NCBI GenBank assembly: GCA_012031565.1
Contig: JAAUUM010000009.1
Coordinates: forward strand, 1-45,967
DNA: 45,967 bases
Direction of reading: 5' to 3'
Source: Synechococcaceae cyanobacterium SM2_3_2
Lineage (GTDB): Bacteria; Cyanobacteriota; Cyanobacteriia; Thermostichales; Thermostichaceae
Below, piece by piece: positions 7,836 to 39,822 of the stretch; position 1 is the first letter of the stretch, and each line of letters opens with the position of its first letter. Position numbers and translations under genes: made by a program. The notes under the pieces were generated by a model, which saw nothing but the letters and a program-made list of their open reading frames with translations, was not told the DNA's origin and ran no database searches.

Positions 7836-9752
7836 TTAGGATCCCTCCCCTGAGGTCAACGGCGACTGTAGGGGCAGCCAAATCTCAAAAACAGTCCATT
7901 CGGCGGCACTGGTGACAGCGATCTGCCCATGCAGAGCTTCCACCAGAGCTTTGACCAGCGAGAGTCCCAAGCCAGTGCCCCCCCGTTGCCAGGGATCCCC
8001 TTTGGGTACGCGATAAAACTTATCGAAGATGCGGGGTAATTCTTGGGCGGGAATCTCGGCGGTATTGCCAATGCTGATCTGGATCCCAGGGATGGCCTGT
8101 TGGGTCAGGGGGGTGGCACTGATCACGATCTCGCCCCCTGGCTGGGTGTACTTGCAGGCATTGTTGAGCAGCTCTTGCAGGATTCGATCCAATCCGGTGG
8201 CTTCGGTTCTGACAGTGGGCAACTGGGCTTCGGCTGTGTAGCGCAGCTTGACTTGATACTCATGGGCGCGGATGGCGAAGGTTTGGGCGCATCGTTGCAG
8301 GACAGCGTTGAGATCGATCTCATCGAGATTAACCGGATCGGGCTTGGATGCCAACCGTTGCAGGTTGAGCAAGTCCTCCACCAGGTTGATCTCCCGCCGA
8401 CACTCGCTCTCCAACATGCCGATATAGCGGTTGAGCCGTTCCACCGACACCATCTCACTGGCGGCAGTTTGTTTCAACATCTCGACAGCCACTCGGATCG
8501 AGGCCAGAGGGGTTCGCAATTCGTGGGAGACAGTGCTGAGAAAATCGTCCTTGAGCTGATGAAATGTCTCCAGCTCATGAATCCGGGCTTGATCCCGCTC
8601 GTGCAAGGTCAGGTGCTGGAGGGCAACCGTCAGATGGGTTGCCACTTGATAGGTGAGGTTGATCTCTGACTGCTTCCAGCGGCGGGGGCCAGCGTTTTGA
8701 TAAACCGCCAACAGTCCCCAGGCTTTGGATTCAAAGGTAACGGTAACGATCAGATAGGCCCGAGCTTGAAATCGCTCCAGCATTTTGACGTAACAGTCAC
8801 TCAAGTCTGCTTCATAGATGTCTTCGACGGTGCGAAAAACATTGGTGTGCTCACCCGCTTCGATCAGGCTGTTACGCAGGGGGGTATCTGCATAGTGGCT
8901 GAGCTTCTGAACATTGCAGTCGCTCATAGTGGATTGCAAAACAGGATCCCATTCCTGCCGATCCAGCAGGGATTCCCATTCTGGCAGCACAGATTCCGCC
9001 ACAAATTCGCCGCTCCAATCGGGCCGAAAGCGATAGATCACCACCCGATCCGCCTGCAAGGTCTGGCGTAATTCTGTCACTGTGGTCTGTAGCGTTTCCT
9101 CAACTGTCAAGGGGCGGGGGATCTTCGAGATGAGGTGTAGCAGTTGCTCTCGATCAGCCAGGGCTTGCCGCTCCACCTCCAATGCTTTTTCGATGCGGAT
9201 CGCCTCTGCCTGCTGAATGGCGATGGAGAGTTGGGTAGCCATTTGCATCAGTGTGGCCACCTCTAGATCCTGCCATTGGCGCGGCCCACTACACTGATGG
9301 GCAATCAGCAACCCCCAGACTCGGGATCCCTCAAAAATCGGCACAACCAGATTGGCCTTGACCTCAAACCGTTCTAAGAGGGCAAGATGGCAGGGACTGA
9401 GACCAGCCTGAGTGACATCGGGTATCAAATTGATCTGGTCTTTGCCGTTGTATTGCTCCGCCCGCGACTCTCGAAAACAGGTGTCTTCAATCTCAACCCC
9501 CAAAGAAGGCGTCCATCCTGTTCCGACCGATTCTGCGACAGGGGTGCCATTGTAATGGGGGTCAAATTGGTAGATCAGCACCCGGTCTAAGCCCATGAGG
9601 CGGCGGGCCTCAACCACCGTTGTGTTAAAGACAGTGGCCAAATCTAGCGACTCGCGGATCCTGGTGATCACATCTATTATCTGACTATGCTTTGAGAGAG
9701 AGGAATAAGTGATCATTCCAGAGCGCCGCAACGAATCCATACTGCAAACCAC
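7836..9752 (-). CDS. Tandem-GAF sensor histidine kinase, candidate cyanobacteriochrome
   Basis: Two GAF domains (AGLSPCHLALLERFEVKANLVVPI; ADLSDCYVKMLERFQARAYLIV), HisKA STVSHELRTPLASIRVAVEML, HATPase FDKFYRVPKGDPWQRGGTGLGLSLVKALVEAL. Confidence 0.9.
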   Translation of the reverse strand: MVCSMDSLRRSGMITYSSLSKHSQIIDVITRIRESLDLATVFNTTVVEARRLMGLDRVLIYQFDPHYNGTPVAESVGTGWTPSLGVEIEDTCFRESRAEQYNGKDQINLIPDVTQAGLSPCHLALLERFEVKANLVVPIFEGSRVWGLLIAHQCSGPRQWQDLEVATLMQMATQLSIAIQQAEAIRIEKALEVERQALADREQLLHLISKIPRPLTVEETLQTTVTELRQTLQADRVVIYRFRPDWSGEFVAESVLPEWESLLDRQEWDPVLQSTMSDCNVQKLSHYADTPLRNSLIEAGEHTNVFRTVEDIYEADLSDCYVKMLERFQARAYLIVTVTFESKAWGLLAVYQNAGPRRWKQSEINLTYQVATHLTVALQHLTLHERDQARIHELETFHQLKDDFLSTVSHELRTPLASIRVAVEMLKQTAASEMVSVERLNRYIGMLESECRREINLVEDLLNLQRLASKPDPVNLDEIDLNAVLQRCAQTFAIRAHEYQVKLRYTAEAQLPTVRTEATGLDRILQELLNNACKYTQPGGEIVISATPLTQQAIPGIQISIGNTAEIPAQELPRIFDKFYRVPKGDPWQRGGTGLGLSLVKALVEALHGQIAVTSAAEWTVFEIWLPLQSPLTSGEGS

Positions 9753-20639: not shown

Positions 20640-20987
20640 TTATGATCTGTCGACATCAGGCTGTGGGGGATGCTGGTTGCGAATCAGATAACGCAATTCA
20701 TCTAAGAGAACATCAAAGCGTTGATCTTGTTCTACCTGTCGGTGCCTGATCTGTTCCATTTCCGCTTCGTGCTGATCCATCCGTTCCCACGATTGCCGCA
20801 TCATGTCAGAGAGCAGCCCAATCTGAGCCTGAGTACCCAACTGAGCGAGCTGCAACTTTTTTTGATTATTTTGAAACTGCCTTTGATTTTCTTTAATTTC
20901 TCCTAGTCCCTGAGTACTCGCTTCTGAAACTCGTTCAATGGCAGAAGCAAGTCGGGCAAAGTTGTCATTTAAGTCCTCATTGGTCAT
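20640..20987 (-). CDS. Small coiled-coil hypothetical protein inside the ABC transporter cluster
   Basis: 115 aa, no family recognised; opposite strand to flanking genes; [38 protein letters not shown] is coiled-coil-like. Confidence 0.6.
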
Positions 20988-21027
20988 TCCTTGTCTCTCA
21001 CAAAACTGTGGATCTGGAGCCTATACT

Positions 21028-22811
21028 ATGACTTCCCAACCCCGGCTTCAACCAGACCAAACTTCCTCTGCGGATACCAAGGGATCCCTGGATAGCCCCC
21101 CAAAAACCCTCGTCACTGGCGAGGATTGGATGGCGCGGGGCTTAGTGCTGCTGATCGCCCTCTGGCTACTGGTGTCGGTGGCACTGCCGCTCTATCAAAT
21201 CCTCAGCCGCAGCTTTGTAGACAACGCGGGAGCCTGGGTGGGATGGGCCAACTATCAGCGCTATTTCGGCACCCCTCGACTGGCGGATTCCTTTAGCCAC
21301 AGTCTCTATGTTTCCATCGTCAGCACCTTGATCTCGGTGGGATTGGCCTTTGGCTACGCCTATGGTCTGACCCGCACTTGTATGCCCGCCAAGGGGATCT
21401 TTCGCCTCTTGGCCCTAATGCCCCTCTACTTGCCCTCACTGGCCCATGCCATCGGGCTGATCTATCTATTTGGCAATCAAGGGGTGGTGACAACAGGGTT
21501 CTTTGGGCTGTTGCCCCGGATGCCGATCGGTCTGTATGGCCCCACTGGGATCATTTTGGGGGAGAGCATCTACTGCTTCCCACAGGCGGTGTTGATCTTG
21601 ACCACAGCCTTGCTACTGGCGGATGGGCGCTTGTTTGAGGCCAGTGTGGCGCTGCGGGCTCCCGCTTGGCGTACCTTCTGGACGGTGACGCTGCCGGGGA
21701 TCAAATTTGGTCTGGTCAGCGCTCTTTTTGTCTGTTTCACCCTAGTCTTTACCGACTTTGGCGTCCCAAAAGTGGTGGGGGGCAACTATAACGTCTTGGC
21801 CACAGATATCTATCGCCAGGTGATTGGCCAGCAAAACTTCACGATGGGTGCCACCATCAGTGTGCTGATGCTGATCCCGACGGTGATCGCGTTTATCATC
21901 GACCGGATCGTACAGCGGCAACAGGTGGCAATGGTGGGATCTCGGATCGTGCCCTACCAGCCCCGGCCTCATGCGTGGGTCGATCGCCTCTTTTTGGCAT
22001 TTTGCACCCTGATCGCCTTCTTGGTGGTGACGGTGCTGCTGACGTTGGCCATTGCCTCACTGATCGATGTCTGGCCCTATCAACTGGGCTTGAGTTTGCG
22101 TCACTGGGATCTCAATCAAGCGGCGGGGGGTGGATACCAGGCGTTTTGGAATAGCCTACGCATGTCGTTTTACTCCGCCATTGTGGGCACAGGACTGGTC
22201 TTTAGCAGTGCTTATGTCATTGAAAAATGTCGGCCTTGGCCTCGTTTGCGCCAGTTGGCTTATTTTGCCTCGACGCTGCCGGTGGCGCTGCCTGGATTGG
22301 TGTTGGGGCTGGCCTACATCTTCTTTTTCAACGCTCCCGTGTGGCGGTTGTGGGGGCTAGAGATGGCCAATCCCTTTCACGGCCTCTACAACACCATGGC
22401 TCTATTGGTGATCTGCAATGTCATCCACTTCTATACCGTCAGTTTTTTGACCGCAACAACCACATTGCGACAGTTGGATCCCGAGTTTGAGTCGGTGGCC
22501 ACTTCGATGGGGGTGCCCTTTTACCGGACGTTTTATCAAGTGACGACGCCGTTGTGTCTGCCTGCCCTATTGCAAATCGGCTTTTATCTCTTCGTCATGT
22601 CGATGGTGACGGTGTCGGCGGTGATATTTTTGTATCCCCGCAGCTGCGGCTGGCGTCGGTGGCGGTGGTGAATATGGATGATGCCGGCAATACAGCGTCT
22701 GCGGCGGCGATGTCGACCTTGATTGTGCTGGCTAGCTTGGCGGTGCAGATCTTATATGGAGCTGCCACCCGAGGGATCCAACGGCGTACCCAGGCTTGGA
22801 AACAACGATAG
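21028..22811 (+). pseudogene. Two-domain ABC transporter permease with apparent 1-nt deletion near 22630
   Basis: ORF 20938..22671 (likely start MTSQPRLQ at 21028) ends [19 protein letters not shown]; frame at 22554..22811 continues the expected sequence [42 protein letters not shown]. Confidence 0.8.
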
Positions 22812-23984: not shown

Positions 23985-26728
23985 ATGTTTCGCCGCAGGT
24001 CTGTTTTGATTTTTCAGCCCTCTCGCCCGCACGAGATCTTAGATACGGGGAAAAAACCTGCTGATTCTATGGCTGACTTTTGGTCTCCTCGGCTTCTCTA
24101 TCGAGGGCGTCCGGTGGCGGGTCGCTCCCAGGCCATTTTGCACACCCTGTTCGAGAGCGTCAACGAAGGTCTGTTCATTCTGGATACCACCCCCCAGGGT
24201 TTTATCTTCAAAGCCTGTAACCCAGCCTTTGCCCAATGGATGGGATTGGCTCCCCAAGCCCTCAACAACGTGGATCCCAGGGAAGCTCTGCCCATTGATA
24301 TTGCCGGAGCCTTTTATGACAATGGCCACCAGTGCTTGAGCCAAAAAGTATCGGTTCGCTTTCAGGCCACCATCCACAGCCGCAGCCTGATCGTGACCCT
24401 ATCGCCGGTGTTAGAGGAAGATGCTCCGGTGCAGCAGATGGTGGGAGCGTGCCAAGACATCACCGATTTGAAAGTGGCGGAAGCCATGCTCCAGCGCAGC
24501 CAATTGCGCCTGCAACGGCAAAATCAAACCCTGATGCAGTTGGCCCACAATCAAGCCTTGGCCTCAGGCAATCTCAATGAGGCGCTCCATCAGATCACCG
24601 AAGCCGCTGCTGAGATCATTGAGGTGGAGCGGGTGGGAGTCTGGCTGTATAACCCCGAACGGACAAAGTTGGTTTGTATCGATCTCTATGATCGGAGCCT
24701 ACAAGCCCACCGCGAAGCCAAGCCGCTCGATGTGCAGGTTTACCCGGCCTATTTTGAGGCTCTGCAAAATGAACGGGCCATTGCCGCTGCCGATGTGCTG
24801 ACGGATCCCCGCACCCATGAGTTGGGCAAATCCTATTTACTAGGATCTGAAATCCGGGCTTTGTTGGACGCACCGGTGCGGTTGGGGGGGCGCGTGGTGG
24901 GGGTGATCTGCCATGAGCACACTGGGGGATCCCGAGCCTGGGTCGGAGAAGAGCTGGCCTTTGCGGGATCGGTGGCGGATTTGGTCACGTTGGCCCTAGA
25001 AGCCTCCGAGCGGCAGCAGGCGGAGCAAGCTCTGCGGCGGGCGGAAGAACGCTATCGGATTTTCTTTGAGGAGGCCATCGAAGGCATCTTCTTTACCACC
25101 GCCACGGGTCAGTGTGTATCAGCGAACCCTATGCTGGCCAAAATCTTGGGTTACGAGTCACCAGGGGAGTTGATTGAACATCTCACCGATGTCTCTCGTC
25201 AGCTCTACGTGGATCCCCAGCGACGGCAGGAGTTTCTCCGCCAAATTGACGAAAATGGGGCTGTCTGGGGCTTTGAGTCAGCGGTGTACTGTAAAGATGG
25301 CAGCACCACCTGGATCAGTGAGAACACACGGGCGGTGAGGGATAGCAACGGCATTCTGATGGGCTATGAAGGTACGGTCGAAAACATTACTGCCCGCAGA
25401 CGGGATCAGGCCATCATCGAATACATGGCCTATTTTGACAGTTTGACCGGGTTGGCCAACCGAGAACGATTTGATCAAGATCTGGAGGAAGCGTGCTCCA
25501 GGCGCAAGGCCAAGATCTGATGGTGGCAGTTTTGTTTATTGACCTGGATCGGTTCAAACAGATCAACGATACCCTCGGCCATCAGGTGGGAGATGAGCTG
25601 CTCAAACTAGCGGCTGAACGGCTCAAACTGTGTGTACGAGAAGATGATCGGGTGGCCCGTTGGGGGGGCGACGAGTTTACGATTCTGCTGCCACGGATCC
25701 TGCAAGACACTGAGGTGATCAAGGTTGCCCACCGGATCCAGGCAAGTTTTGACCAGCCGATCATGGTGGGATCCCATAGCTTGCATATCACCTGTAGCAT
25801 TGGCGTTGCGCTTTTCCCTCGGGATGGTCTGGATGCCGCAGCCCTTTTGCAAGCCGCTGATACCGCCCTCTACCAAGTTAAAGAGTCTGGTCGCAATGGC
25901 TACAGCTTGTTCCGACCTGAGATGAATACGGTGGCGCTGAACCGGTTGCGGATTGAGACGGATCTACGGGAGGCGATTCAGGCTCATCAATTCCAGCTCT
26001 ACTATCAGCCCCAAGTGGACTGCCGAACTGGTGAACTGTTGGCCATGGAAGCTCTGTTGCGCTGGCATCATCCCAGCCTGGGCCTGTGTTCGCCCTTGGC
26101 CTTTATTCCGGTGGCTGAGGATAGCGGATTGATCGTCCCCATCGGTCACTGGGTGCTTCAGACCGCCTGTCAACACTGTCGATCCTGGCAGCAACAGGGC
26201 TTTCCCGATCTCAAGGTGGCGGTCAACCTATCGGTGAGTCAGTTTCGAGAGGCCAATTTGGTGGAGATGATCAAGGAGGTTTTACAGATCACGGGGCTGG
26301 ATCCCGCTGCTCTCAAATTGGAGATCACCGAGAGTGTGGCCATGAACCATGTGGAGATGGTGCTAAATGTGCTGCAACAGCTGCGGGACATTGGCATCCA
26401 AATCGCCATTGATGATTTTGGGGTGGGCTACTCCTCGCTCAATTATTTGAAGCAATTCCCCATCGACGCCCTCAAGATCGATATGTCGTTTGTCTCAGGG
26501 ATCCCGGATAGTAAAAGCGATGTGGCGGTGGTGCGAGCGATCATCAATTTGGGCCGTAGCCTCGAAATGCGGGTGATCGCGGAAGGGGTGGAAACCGCTG
26601 AGCAAGCGCAGGTGTTGCGAGACCTAGACTGTGATGAGATGCAGGGCTACTGGTTTAGCCGACCGTTGCCCTCCGATCAGGTTTTGGCCTATTTGCTCAA
26701 TCCCACCCATCCCGCTATTGCCAGCTGA
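23985..26728 (+). pseudogene. PAS-GAF-PAS-GGDEF-EAL protein split by apparent 1-nt frameshift near 25494
   Basis: ORF 23985..25520 ends DSLTGLANRERFDQDLEEACSRRKAKI*; ORF 25493..26728 resumes LLQAQGQDLMVAVLFIDLDRFKQINDTLGH with RWGGDEF and MEALLRW (EAL). The second ORF has a possible GTG start at 25493. Confidence 0.85.
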
Positions 26729-36390: not shown

Positions 36391-39300
36391 TTAACTTATC
36401 AGGGACAACAGTGAAACTTTAGCTTTTTGCATCACGGGATCCCATTGCTTAGGGGTGTCTTGCCGAAACAGTCTCATGGTGGGGTAATAGGGGGTGTCCT
36501 CACGTTCCAAAAGCCAACGCCAATCACAATTGTGACAAAGTAATGTCCAGGTGGGTCGTCCCAATGCGCCTGCTAAATGAACCACTGAGGTATCGACACT
36601 GATCACCAGATCCAGATGAGCAAGAATGGCTGCTGTATCGGCATAGTCTTGAACATAGGGATCCCAATTGATCACCGATATAGATCCTGGAAGTTGATCC
36701 AACTGTGAGACCTGCGGGCCTTTTTGCAGACTATGAAACTGGATCCCTTTGAGGCTCAAAAGAGGTAGCCAATCTTGGAGACGGCTAGAACGATTGTGGT
36801 CATTACCTTGGGTGGGACTACCGGCCCAACAAATGCCGACATGAAAACTCTTTTGGTTGGCATTAGGCGGTCTTATAGCTTTGGTTTTAAAGCCTTGGGG
36901 ATGATGAGAGCTTCCATTCTGAGGCTGAAAAACAAGATTGAGTTGAGATTGTAGATCTGGTCTGACAGGAGGAATCTTGAGATAAGGAACTTGATTAGGG
37001 ATCCCTTTGAGGTCAATATCCAAGCAACCTGGCAAGCTCATCATGGGTGAGTAGACTTGAAAGGATGAAAGCGGGATATCTCCAGCGTTATAGATCTGGC
37101 TAATCCCTGATACCTGCTGAAAAAGACGGGTGAGATGATGGGGACACACCACAATCAGATCTTGGCAGCGCTGCAATGCTAAAGGGATAAACCGAACGAA
37201 TTGGATCGCATCTCCTGCCCCTTGCTCGGTATGCACCAGCAGTGTCTTTTGAGAAATATCCTCTCCAGCCCAGCGAGGATGAGGGCATTTGAAGGCAGTG
37301 AATTGATTGGTTTGCCACCGCCATTCAAACTCTTTCCATCCATCCCGTAGGGATCCCAATTTCAACAGTGCCATACCTTTATTCATGTGGGCATCGGCAA
37401 AACTGGGATCCAGTTCAATGGCTTTGTCATAGAGCTGAATTGCCTCATCCAGACGATTCTGGTTGGCAAAGGTATAGCCCAAGGAATTATGTGTTCGGGC
37501 ATTGTCAGGATCCTCTTGGATCGAGATTCTTAGATGTTGTTCAGCTTCCTGCCATTGCTCAATATCGCCACAGGTTACACCCAGGTTATAGCGGGCCACT
37601 TTAATGCTGGGATCCAGCTCCAGACAGCGACGAAAATACTCAGCTGCCAGCTTCCGCTCCCCTCGTCCATGAGCTTGGATCCCTTGTTGTAGGTAAAAGT
37701 CAGGATCCTCTTTGGGGCGACAGGAGGGATCCCATTGGGCTAGAGCTTGCTGTGCCACCTGCATGGCGGGATCCAAGGCTAGGCAGCGTTTCAGTAGAGC
37801 TATGGCTTGGGCAGGATCTGATGAGGACTGAGCTTGGGCAAAAAGGTGATCGGGATTGTAATCAGTCTCAAATTTGTGCTGCAAATGTTGGAGATGAGAT
37901 TGGGTGATCTGAGCCATCTGTTGCAGGTAACCTTGCTGCTGGGGGGTGATGGGTTCTTGATAAGTATGGGGAGCAGATTGAAACTTTTTGAGCTGAAAAT
38001 CTAAATGATTACCGGGATAACGGCGATATTCGACAGTCTCTTCAGGGATCCAAATGATGCTAAAAAAGGTGGTCAGCCACGCAGCATAGGCTTGATCCTC
38101 ACCTCCATAGATGGACTGACGAAAGGGATCTTGGCTGGGAAAACCCTCAATGAACTCGTGAGCCTCGCGGCGGATGCAGAGATTCAGGGTGTGTACCTGC
38201 TTGATTTGTTCTGCCCAGTAGGGATGAAGAGGATCCTCTATTTTGATGCCTGTTTTGACAGCCGCAGGATAGCTACTAGGCAAGCGATAAATCGGATTAG
38301 CCGTGTTGGGATTAAGCGGGCGATTGAGTATTTGTAGACAAGTTAGAACATGATTGGGCAAGAATAAGTCATCGTCGTCGCAGAAGAAAATCGCCTGAGC
38401 TGTAGTTGCTGCCACTCCTCGATTACGAGTTGTTGCTAGTCCTTGATTCTCCTCTTGCCGAACGATCTTAACCCACGGTTTAGTACTGGCCCATTCTTGT
38501 AGTCGAGTCCAAGTTTGATCGGTGGAAGCATCATCCACAATCACAATTTCATGCCGCATCCGCTCGGAGTAAGGATACTTTTGATAAAAGAAGTCGATGC
38601 TAGCTTGAATACTCTGTAGCGTTCGTTCTAGAATTTCCCAGCCCTTTCGCTCAACATTAAAGACAGGCACCACCACAGCAAAATGAGTCACCATCGGCTC
38701 TGGGTCTTGATCCCCACAATCGGGTCGAAATAGAGGAGCAGGATCCCCAGTCGCCATCTGTTGCAAAGCCTCATCCGGCAAGACATAGGAGGTGCCCAAT
38801 AGCCTCTCTTGTTCATCATCATTAAATCTGGGATCCCCCAAGACCTCTGGGAAGCGGGTGTTGGGCAAAACCTGCACCGCAAAGATCTCCTCTACCCCTT
38901 CTTCAAAGCGCAAGAATCCCAAGGTCTGACCACTCTCGATATTGACCACCCAAACCCCACAGATCCGCTCGGTCAGTTTTTGGGTAATCGGGATCCCGCT
39001 AAACACCGCCGACTCCCGCACCTTCGAGAGGCCAATAAAAGCAATCGGCCCACAGAAATCAATGCCCCGCGTGAAACCCGGCATCTCCGCCACCGGCTGC
39101 CAAGTGCCCTGCTGGAGATCCACCCGCGCCAAAGTGCCTTGGCCTGACTCCAAGACCCACAGCTGATCCCGATACCAGCGGGGAGAATGGGGCATCGACA
39201 ACCCCCGCACCAGGATCCGGTTAGAGGTGATATCCATCAACAGGCCGCCATTGGCCTTATTCGTCCGCCAGCCCCCAGCGGTATCCGTCTCTCCCAGCGC

Positions 39301-39822
39301 CGTTACAAAACGAGGGATCCCGTCCACCATCGCCAACCCATTCAGGTGACATCGATCCGTCAGATCATAGGCACTGACAAAAGGAGGTCGCCAGCGAGGC
39401 ACAAAGCTATGGTCAGCATCCAACGTGCAGAGGCAAGAAAAGCGGGTATTGAGAAACCACAGCCCCTCTCGCCCATAGGCCATCTCATGAATATCAATAT
39501 CGCCAGTGATATGGGTGGCACGGGGAATAAAACAGGCATCATGCTTGCCAGGGGGATCCAACTTTTGCCCCACCGCTGGACTATTGCGATGCTCCCAGAT
39601 CTGGTGGGCACAGCCAACCGCCAGCTTATTGCCCTCCACCGCCAACCCCATCGGCTTTTGAAACACTCGAAAATGGGTATTGAGCTGTGCTCCATCTGCC
39701 CGTACCACAATCAGCTTGCCCGCCTGATAGGTGGACACCAGCAGCGAGACCCCCAACTGATTCAGGATCTGGGGCAGATTGGTGGTGTGAACACTGCGAA
39801 GATTGCTGCTGATGGGATCCAT
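36391..39822 (-). CDS. TIGR03032-like / GT2 / TPR / GT9-like multidomain fusion
   Basis: 1143 aa: LVSTYQAGKLIVVRADGAQLNTHFRVFQKPMGLAVEGNKLAVGC; VVVPVFNVERKGWEILERTLQSI..IVIVDDASTDQTWTRLQE; TPR LDPSIKVARYNLGVTCGDIEQWQEAEQHLR; C-term HTEQGAGDAIQFVRFIPL and LAHLDLVISVDTSVVHLAGALGRPTWTLL. Confidence 0.9.
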   Translation of the reverse strand: MDPISSNLRSVHTTNLPQILNQLGVSLLVSTYQAGKLIVVRADGAQLNTHFRVFQKPMGLAVEGNKLAVGCAHQIWEHRNSPAVGQKLDPPGKHDACFIPRATHITGDIDIHEMAYGREGLWFLNTRFSCLCTLDADHSFVPRWRPPFVSAYDLTDRCHLNGLAMVDGIPRFVTALGETDTAGGWRTNKANGGLLMDITSNRILVRGLSMPHSPRWYRDQLWVLESGQGTLARVDLQQGTWQPVAEMPGFTRGIDFCGPIAFIGLSKVRESAVFSGIPITQKLTERICGVWVVNIESGQTLGFLRFEEGVEEIFAVQVLPNTRFPEVLGDPRFNDDEQERLLGTSYVLPDEALQQMATGDPAPLFRPDCGDQDPEPMVTHFAVVVPVFNVERKGWEILERTLQSIQASIDFFYQKYPYSERMRHEIVIVDDASTDQTWTRLQEWASTKPWVKIVRQEENQGLATTRNRGVAATTAQAIFFCDDDDLFLPNHVLTCLQILNRPLNPNTANPIYRLPSSYPAAVKTGIKIEDPLHPYWAEQIKQVHTLNLCIRREAHEFIEGFPSQDPFRQSIYGGEDQAYAAWLTTFFSIIWIPEETVEYRRYPGNHLDFQLKKFQSAPHTYQEPITPQQQGYLQQMAQITQSHLQHLQHKFETDYNPDHLFAQAQSSSDPAQAIALLKRCLALDPAMQVAQQALAQWDPSCRPKEDPDFYLQQGIQAHGRGERKLAAEYFRRCLELDPSIKVARYNLGVTCGDIEQWQEAEQHLRISIQEDPDNARTHNSLGYTFANQNRLDEAIQLYDKAIELDPSFADAHMNKGMALLKLGSLRDGWKEFEWRWQTNQFTAFKCPHPRWAGEDISQKTLLVHTEQGAGDAIQFVRFIPLALQRCQDLIVVCPHHLTRLFQQVSGISQIYNAGDIPLSSFQVYSPMMSLPGCLDIDLKGIPNQVPYLKIPPVRPDLQSQLNLVFQPQNGSSHHPQGFKTKAIRPPNANQKSFHVGICWAGSPTQGNDHNRSSRLQDWLPLLSLKGIQFHSLQKGPQVSQLDQLPGSISVINWDPYVQDYADTAAILAHLDLVISVDTSVVHLAGALGRPTWTLLCHNCDWRWLLEREDTPYYPTMRLFRQDTPKQWDPVMQKAKVSLLSLIS

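Follow-up and report, generated by a model that had tools for sequence, protein, structure and literature searches.

The reverse-strand open reading frame at positions 7836-9752 of the window (the whole stretch of 45,967 nucleotides analyzed here) probably encodes a soluble cyanobacteriochrome (CBCR) histidine kinase, in which the first of two GAF domains (GAF1) is a photosensor of the DXCF type, while the second (GAF2) is of the insert-Cys type and is predicted to be a poor photoconverter. With this gene, a cyanobacterial genome that is poorly sampled gains a probable photosensor kinase of the blue/green DXCF kind. Five elements of this model are observed directly, i.e. the domain order, the alignment of four cysteines, the membership of GAF1 among DXCF domains in sequence and tree, the pattern of conservation, and the presence of genes for PcyA and a haem oxygenase. 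The window corresponds to one entire contig (C20) of an assembly of 3.9 Mb in 323 contigs.

Read from the GTG at position 9752, the gene product has 638 amino acids. Four codons further inside, an ATG at 9740 lies in the same frame, preceded by AGAGG about 11 bases upstream; it is probably the true start (634 amino acids), which leaves the GTG start uncertain. The Pfam domains follow the order GAF1-GAF2-HisKA-HATPase_c, with E-values of 2.8e-40 for the two GAF stretches, 4.4e-14 for HisKA and 1.2e-19 for HATPase_c; all exceed their gathering cut-offs, and the scores are far beyond chance. These domains confirm the initial annotation, which had proposed a CBCR histidine kinase with two Cys-bearing GAF domains from the letters alone, and whose reading frame, coordinates and quoted peptides are exact. 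NCBIfam returned only generic kinases for this frame, every match lying below its cut-off. The GC3 of the gene is 0.64, within the range of the neighboring genes (0.56-0.68), and hence the gene is not compositionally foreign.

GAF1 (amino acids 37-181; 9210-9644, reverse strand) is recognized by Pfam, phmmer, Foldseek and the phylogenetic tree, and it can be aligned with solved CBCRs along its length. Among the solved CBCR GAFs, phmmer matches include 6oap (6e-44), NpR6012g4 (6bhn, 1e-38) and TePixJ (3vv4, 4e-37). In the alignment, C92 of the motif D90-T91-C92-F93 (9474-9485, reverse strand) falls on the DXCF cysteine of TePixJ, whose motif reads DPCF, and C121-H122 (9387-9392, reverse strand) falls on the canonical bilin Cys and His of TePixJ and the other solved CBCRs. 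The presence of both elements identifies GAF1, by sequence, as a dual-Cys CBCR domain of the DXCF type. The initial annotation had matched GAF1 to the Cys-His position of phytochrome-type and cyanobacteriochrome GAFs; the position is right, but the domain is not simply phytochrome-like. Each GAF moreover holds a second candidate chromophore cysteine that had been overlooked, namely C92 in GAF1 and C279 in a loop of GAF2. The tree, which comprises 69 GAFs, groups GAF1 with DXCF domains in a clade (support 100/99) of 24 rows, 21 of them DXCF.

With TePixJ (PDB 3vv4/4fof/2m7u), GAF1 shares the second Cys, the canonical CH, the fold and about 43% identity. The two differ in output, which is a chemotaxis receptor in TePixJ and a HisKA/HATPase kinase here, and in two positions of the pocket: alpha4 is Phe in GAF1 and Leu in TePixJ, and beta2 is Pro (P71) in GAF1 and Val in TePixJ. 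The best match in both sequence and structure is the dual sensor histidine kinase PPHK (PDB 6oap/6oaq/6ob8). Its solved GAF, however, reads DQYF where GAF1 has DTCF and thus lacks the DXCF cysteine, so that the photocycle of GAF1 cannot be deduced from sequence similarity alone; this counts against our model. An AlphaFold model of GAF1, built on a three-row alignment with one added relative (L024), reached a mean pLDDT of 74 and a pTM of 0.74, and its 50 best Foldseek matches are all bilin-binding GAFs, with 6oaq first (2e-14) and TePixJ included. A further point on the debit side is that the lid covering the pocket is the very part in which this model is weak (residues 78-93 of the model, pLDDT <50), so it has no bearing on pocket geometry.

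In DXCF CBCRs, the second Cys takes part in the isomerization of phycocyanobilin (PCB) to phycoviolobilin (PVB) and adds to C10; the dark state absorbs blue light and the photoproduct green (PMC11284453). The trapped-twist mechanism of the teal DXCF photocycles has been ascribed to Phe at both beta2 and alpha4 (PMC5240096). Because GAF1 combines Pro with Phe at these positions, a blue/green photocycle is predicted as more likely than a blue/teal one. The pigment should be available in the host, since the genome encodes a single Fe_bilin_red gene, which is PcyA according to NCBIfam (score 339.8 bits, cut-off 206), and one haem oxygenase (E = 1.3e-83). To judge from its residues, GAF1 has everything expected of a working bilin photoswitch and is the conserved sensor of the pair.

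GAF2 (amino acids 213-383; 8604-9116, reverse strand) is supported by Pfam, alignment and tree. Compared with NpR6012g4 and GAF1, it contains an insertion of 16-20 residues ahead of the DXCF position, which holds C279 (MSDCNVQKL; 8916-8918, reverse strand). Our reference sample consists of 40 GAFs, all non-identical and all carrying a Cys in this loop column, drawn by similarity to GAF2 and not as a random census. C279 follows the beta2 Phe (F250) at a distance of 29 residues, an offset found in 38 of the 40 and also in UG1 (F684 to C713; PMC5240096). The Asp at the DXCF position precedes the canonical Cys by 31 residues, again as in 38/40; the same offset follows for UG2 from its D583 and alpha4 L622 (PMC5240096) by our own arithmetic, in which alpha4 equals Cys + 8 and the canonical Cys is implied at 614. 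Because these spacings agree with those of the sampled and published insert-Cys CBCRs (NpF2164g3, NpR1597g2, Mbr3854g4, Mbl3738g2; PMC5240096), whose canonical Cys is also kept, GAF2 can be assigned to the insert-Cys type.

A canonical bilin pocket next to a variant one was what the initial annotation had seen in this kinase, the variant being the Tyr that follows the Cys of GAF2. Both cysteines that it named, C121 in SPCH (amino acids 119-122) and C320 in SDCY (318-321), do fall on the column that holds the bilin-linking Cys in solved CBCRs. The reading of C320-Y321 (8790-8795, reverse strand) as a special variant is nevertheless misleading and is ruled out: the canonical pair is Cys-Tyr in 39 of the 40 insert-Cys GAFs, which makes it the norm of this type, and Tyr occupies the position in 12/36 DXCF and 2/32 XRG-like GAFs of the same set as well. 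Our searches of the literature turned up no mention of Cys-Tyr in CBCRs of the insert-Cys type.

The true deviations of GAF2 are a Tyr-to-Pro exchange in the motif at the DXCF position, D289-T-P-L292 (8877-8888, reverse strand), and the fact that its nearest orthologue has lost the canonical Cys. In the DXYL motif, the Asp is present; the Tyr column of the sample holds Tyr in 30 sequences, His in eight, Phe in one and Pro in one, the last being GAF2 itself, so that DTPL is unique among the 40. The GG following the motif is lost, and the loop reads CNVQ instead of CXXR/K, an element that is poorly conserved (PMC5240096): R or K is found in 30 of the 40 sampled sequences and Q in five. Both the Asp and the Tyr of DXYL are important for efficient photoconversion; in UG1 and UG2, a Phe in place of the Tyr kept about 90% photoconversion, while a Cys left 12-20% (PMC5240096). 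GAF2 may still take up a bilin, but with DTPL for DTYL it probably either photoconverts poorly or is drifting into a relay module. A single-sequence AlphaFold model of GAF2 reached a pLDDT of 47 and was discarded.

In the 69-GAF tree, calculated with the insert columns included, five GAF2s form a clade of their own (100/99) that joins a group of mostly XRG-type GAFs (82/94), several of which also directly precede the kinase in other proteins. However, a topology that unites all insert-Cys GAFs in a single clade costs 8.4 log-likelihood units when the insert is left out and is not rejected (p-AU 0.143). The identical spacing tends to favor a single origin of the insert. As to the spread of the architecture, a DXCF GAF and an insert-Cys GAF occur together in 12 other loci among those fetched, and whole-protein matches with E <1e-105, some of them partial, were obtained in seven other genomes out of approximately 390 sampled from the class. 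Hence, the exact architecture is uncommon, while its parts and their pairing are already known. A thread of mild interest is the apparent wear of GAF2.

This thread can be followed in L027, a full-length orthologue from a genome of the same family (G002), which has the same GAF1-GAF2-kinase layout and 55% identity over the whole protein. Identity amounts to 63% in GAF1, 48% in GAF2 and 55% in the kinase. The GAF1 of L027 keeps DTCF and CH, as do those of L056 and L057; its GAF2, unlike that of the window protein, reads NASY at the canonical site, with Ser for Cys, and its loop lacks a Cys at the matching position. More has been retained in the GAF2s of the next relatives, L056 (insert Cys, DTYL, CH), L062 (insert Cys, DTYL, CY) and L057 (CH and DTYL, no insert Cys). 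GAF2 looks as if it were eroding in this family of genomes, an impression based on two sequences; one orthologue and one unique residue provide little ground for describing GAF2 as worn, and this weighs against our model. With due reserve, we can picture a tandem CBCR kinase that retires its second, insert-Cys photosensor lineage by lineage while the kinase stays wired through GAF2. Intact pairs in relatives, the Tyr-to-Pro pocket in the GAF2 of the window protein and the lost bilin Cys in the sister genus suggest this scenario, although we would give it somewhat less than even chances. The window protein, L027, L056, L057 and L062 form a small natural series for the loss of one light-sensing domain from a tandem photosensor and, if the scenario is true, for the conversion of a photosensor into a signal relay that is blind to light.

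Two alternatives concern how much light sensing GAF2 retains. If both GAFs work, the kinase would read blue/green through GAF1 and near-UV/violet versus a longer wavelength through GAF2, integrating or comparing the two bands. The canonical Cys, the insert Cys, the Asp at the DXCF position and the Phe at beta2 and alpha4 are all kept in GAF2, and the recurrent pairing in 12 other loci points the same way; we nevertheless regard a two-color kinase as unlikely, given the Pro at the Tyr required for efficient UG1/UG2 photoconversion, the lost GG and an orthologue in the same family without the canonical Cys. The opposite possibility, a degenerate GAF2 that is fully light-blind in vivo and serves only as linker or in dimerization and signal transmission, comes nearer to an even chance without reaching it. 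The layout has been retained in L027 despite NASY and the missing loop Cys, divergence is faster in GAF2 than in GAF1, and DTPL is unique in the sample, all as this explanation would have it; yet both cysteines and most pocket residues remain in the window protein, and if relaxation were complete, the survival of C320 would be odd.

It is very improbable that both domains are ordinary GAFs that bind a small molecule other than a bilin and carry their cysteines by coincidence. Generic GAF domains are indeed frequent in this genome (23 Pfam matches), but the best solved relatives all bind bilin, the four cysteines occupy the four columns expected of CBCRs, and the tree places both domains within CBCR clades. 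GAFs unrelated to bilin were rejected on the phmmer and Foldseek matches.

Under the preferred model of a working GAF1 and a poorly photoconverting GAF2, we infer bilin binding, colors, signal direction and partner as follows. Phycocyanobilin would be attached to GAF1 via C121, with C92 of DTCF as the second thiol, and GAF1 would probably isomerize it to phycoviolobilin before the photocycle begins. By analogy with other CBCRs of the DXCF type, a blue-absorbing dark state is expected, in which C92 is bonded to C10 of the bilin; 15Z/15E photoisomerization would then release C92 and yield a green-absorbing state. GAF2, with C279 and C320-Y321, may bind bilin too, its DTPL predicting little photoconversion. 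The change could travel along the helices that join GAF1, GAF2 and HisKA and alter autophosphorylation at H410 and the subsequent transfer of the phosphoryl group to a response regulator whose gene lies elsewhere.

HisKA (8349-8552, reverse strand; Pfam) contains the phosphoacceptor H410 (8523-8525) in an intact H box, and HATPase_c (7866-8201, reverse strand; Pfam) contains intact N (LLNNACKYT), F (IFDKFYR) and G2 (GTGLGL) boxes. The G1 box of classical kinases is DxGxG. That of the window protein (amino acids 559-568) has GNTAEIP instead, a departure that counts against our model; across the CBCR kinases L027-L062 and the window protein, DxGxG is replaced by NTG/NSG/NTA types. Because NTG/NSG is common to the relatives, the departure is a trait of the clade and not a loss. 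Contig C20 contains no receiver-domain gene, whereas 53 receiver matches were found elsewhere in the genome, in agreement with the earlier remark that no response regulator is adjacent. The neighbors are an rsfS-like gene (forward strand, tail to tail) and a citrate-synthase-like gene, and nothing in this arrangement suggests an operon with a partner gene.

A scan of the genome's contigs for relatives found, besides an unrelated kinase, a single relative of the CBCR kind. A PAS-rich kinase on contig C140 (L001) is a probable second CBCR of this genome; its GAF combines DPCF with SCY and thus represents the DXCF type with Cys-Tyr. At the end of contig C143, a GAF is combined with a methyl-accepting chemotaxis protein in a PixJ-like layout (L008); since it reads SDSY at the canonical Cys site, it probably binds no bilin covalently. 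On contig C222, a sensor kinase that combines PAS domains with the remnant of a GAF (L013) extends over two frames with an internal stop and is possibly a pseudogene or an assembly error.

Within the window, a PAS-GAF-PAS-GGDEF-EAL protein of c-di-GMP turnover (23985-26728, forward strand) is interrupted inside GGDEF near 25490-25520; its two reading frames cover successive stretches of NCBIfam NF053781 (691-866, then 868-1265), and the break is either a real frameshift or an assembly error. An ABC permease frame (20938-22671, forward strand), which adjoins an iron-type binding protein and an ATPase, ends in a frame-shifted tail, with the break near 22630; the likely C-terminus of the permease is found in another frame. 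Finally, a protein of 1143 amino acids (36391-39822, reverse strand) appears, from its translation, to be a single chain that unites an N-terminal domain with a segment resembling glycosyltransferases and with TPR repeats.
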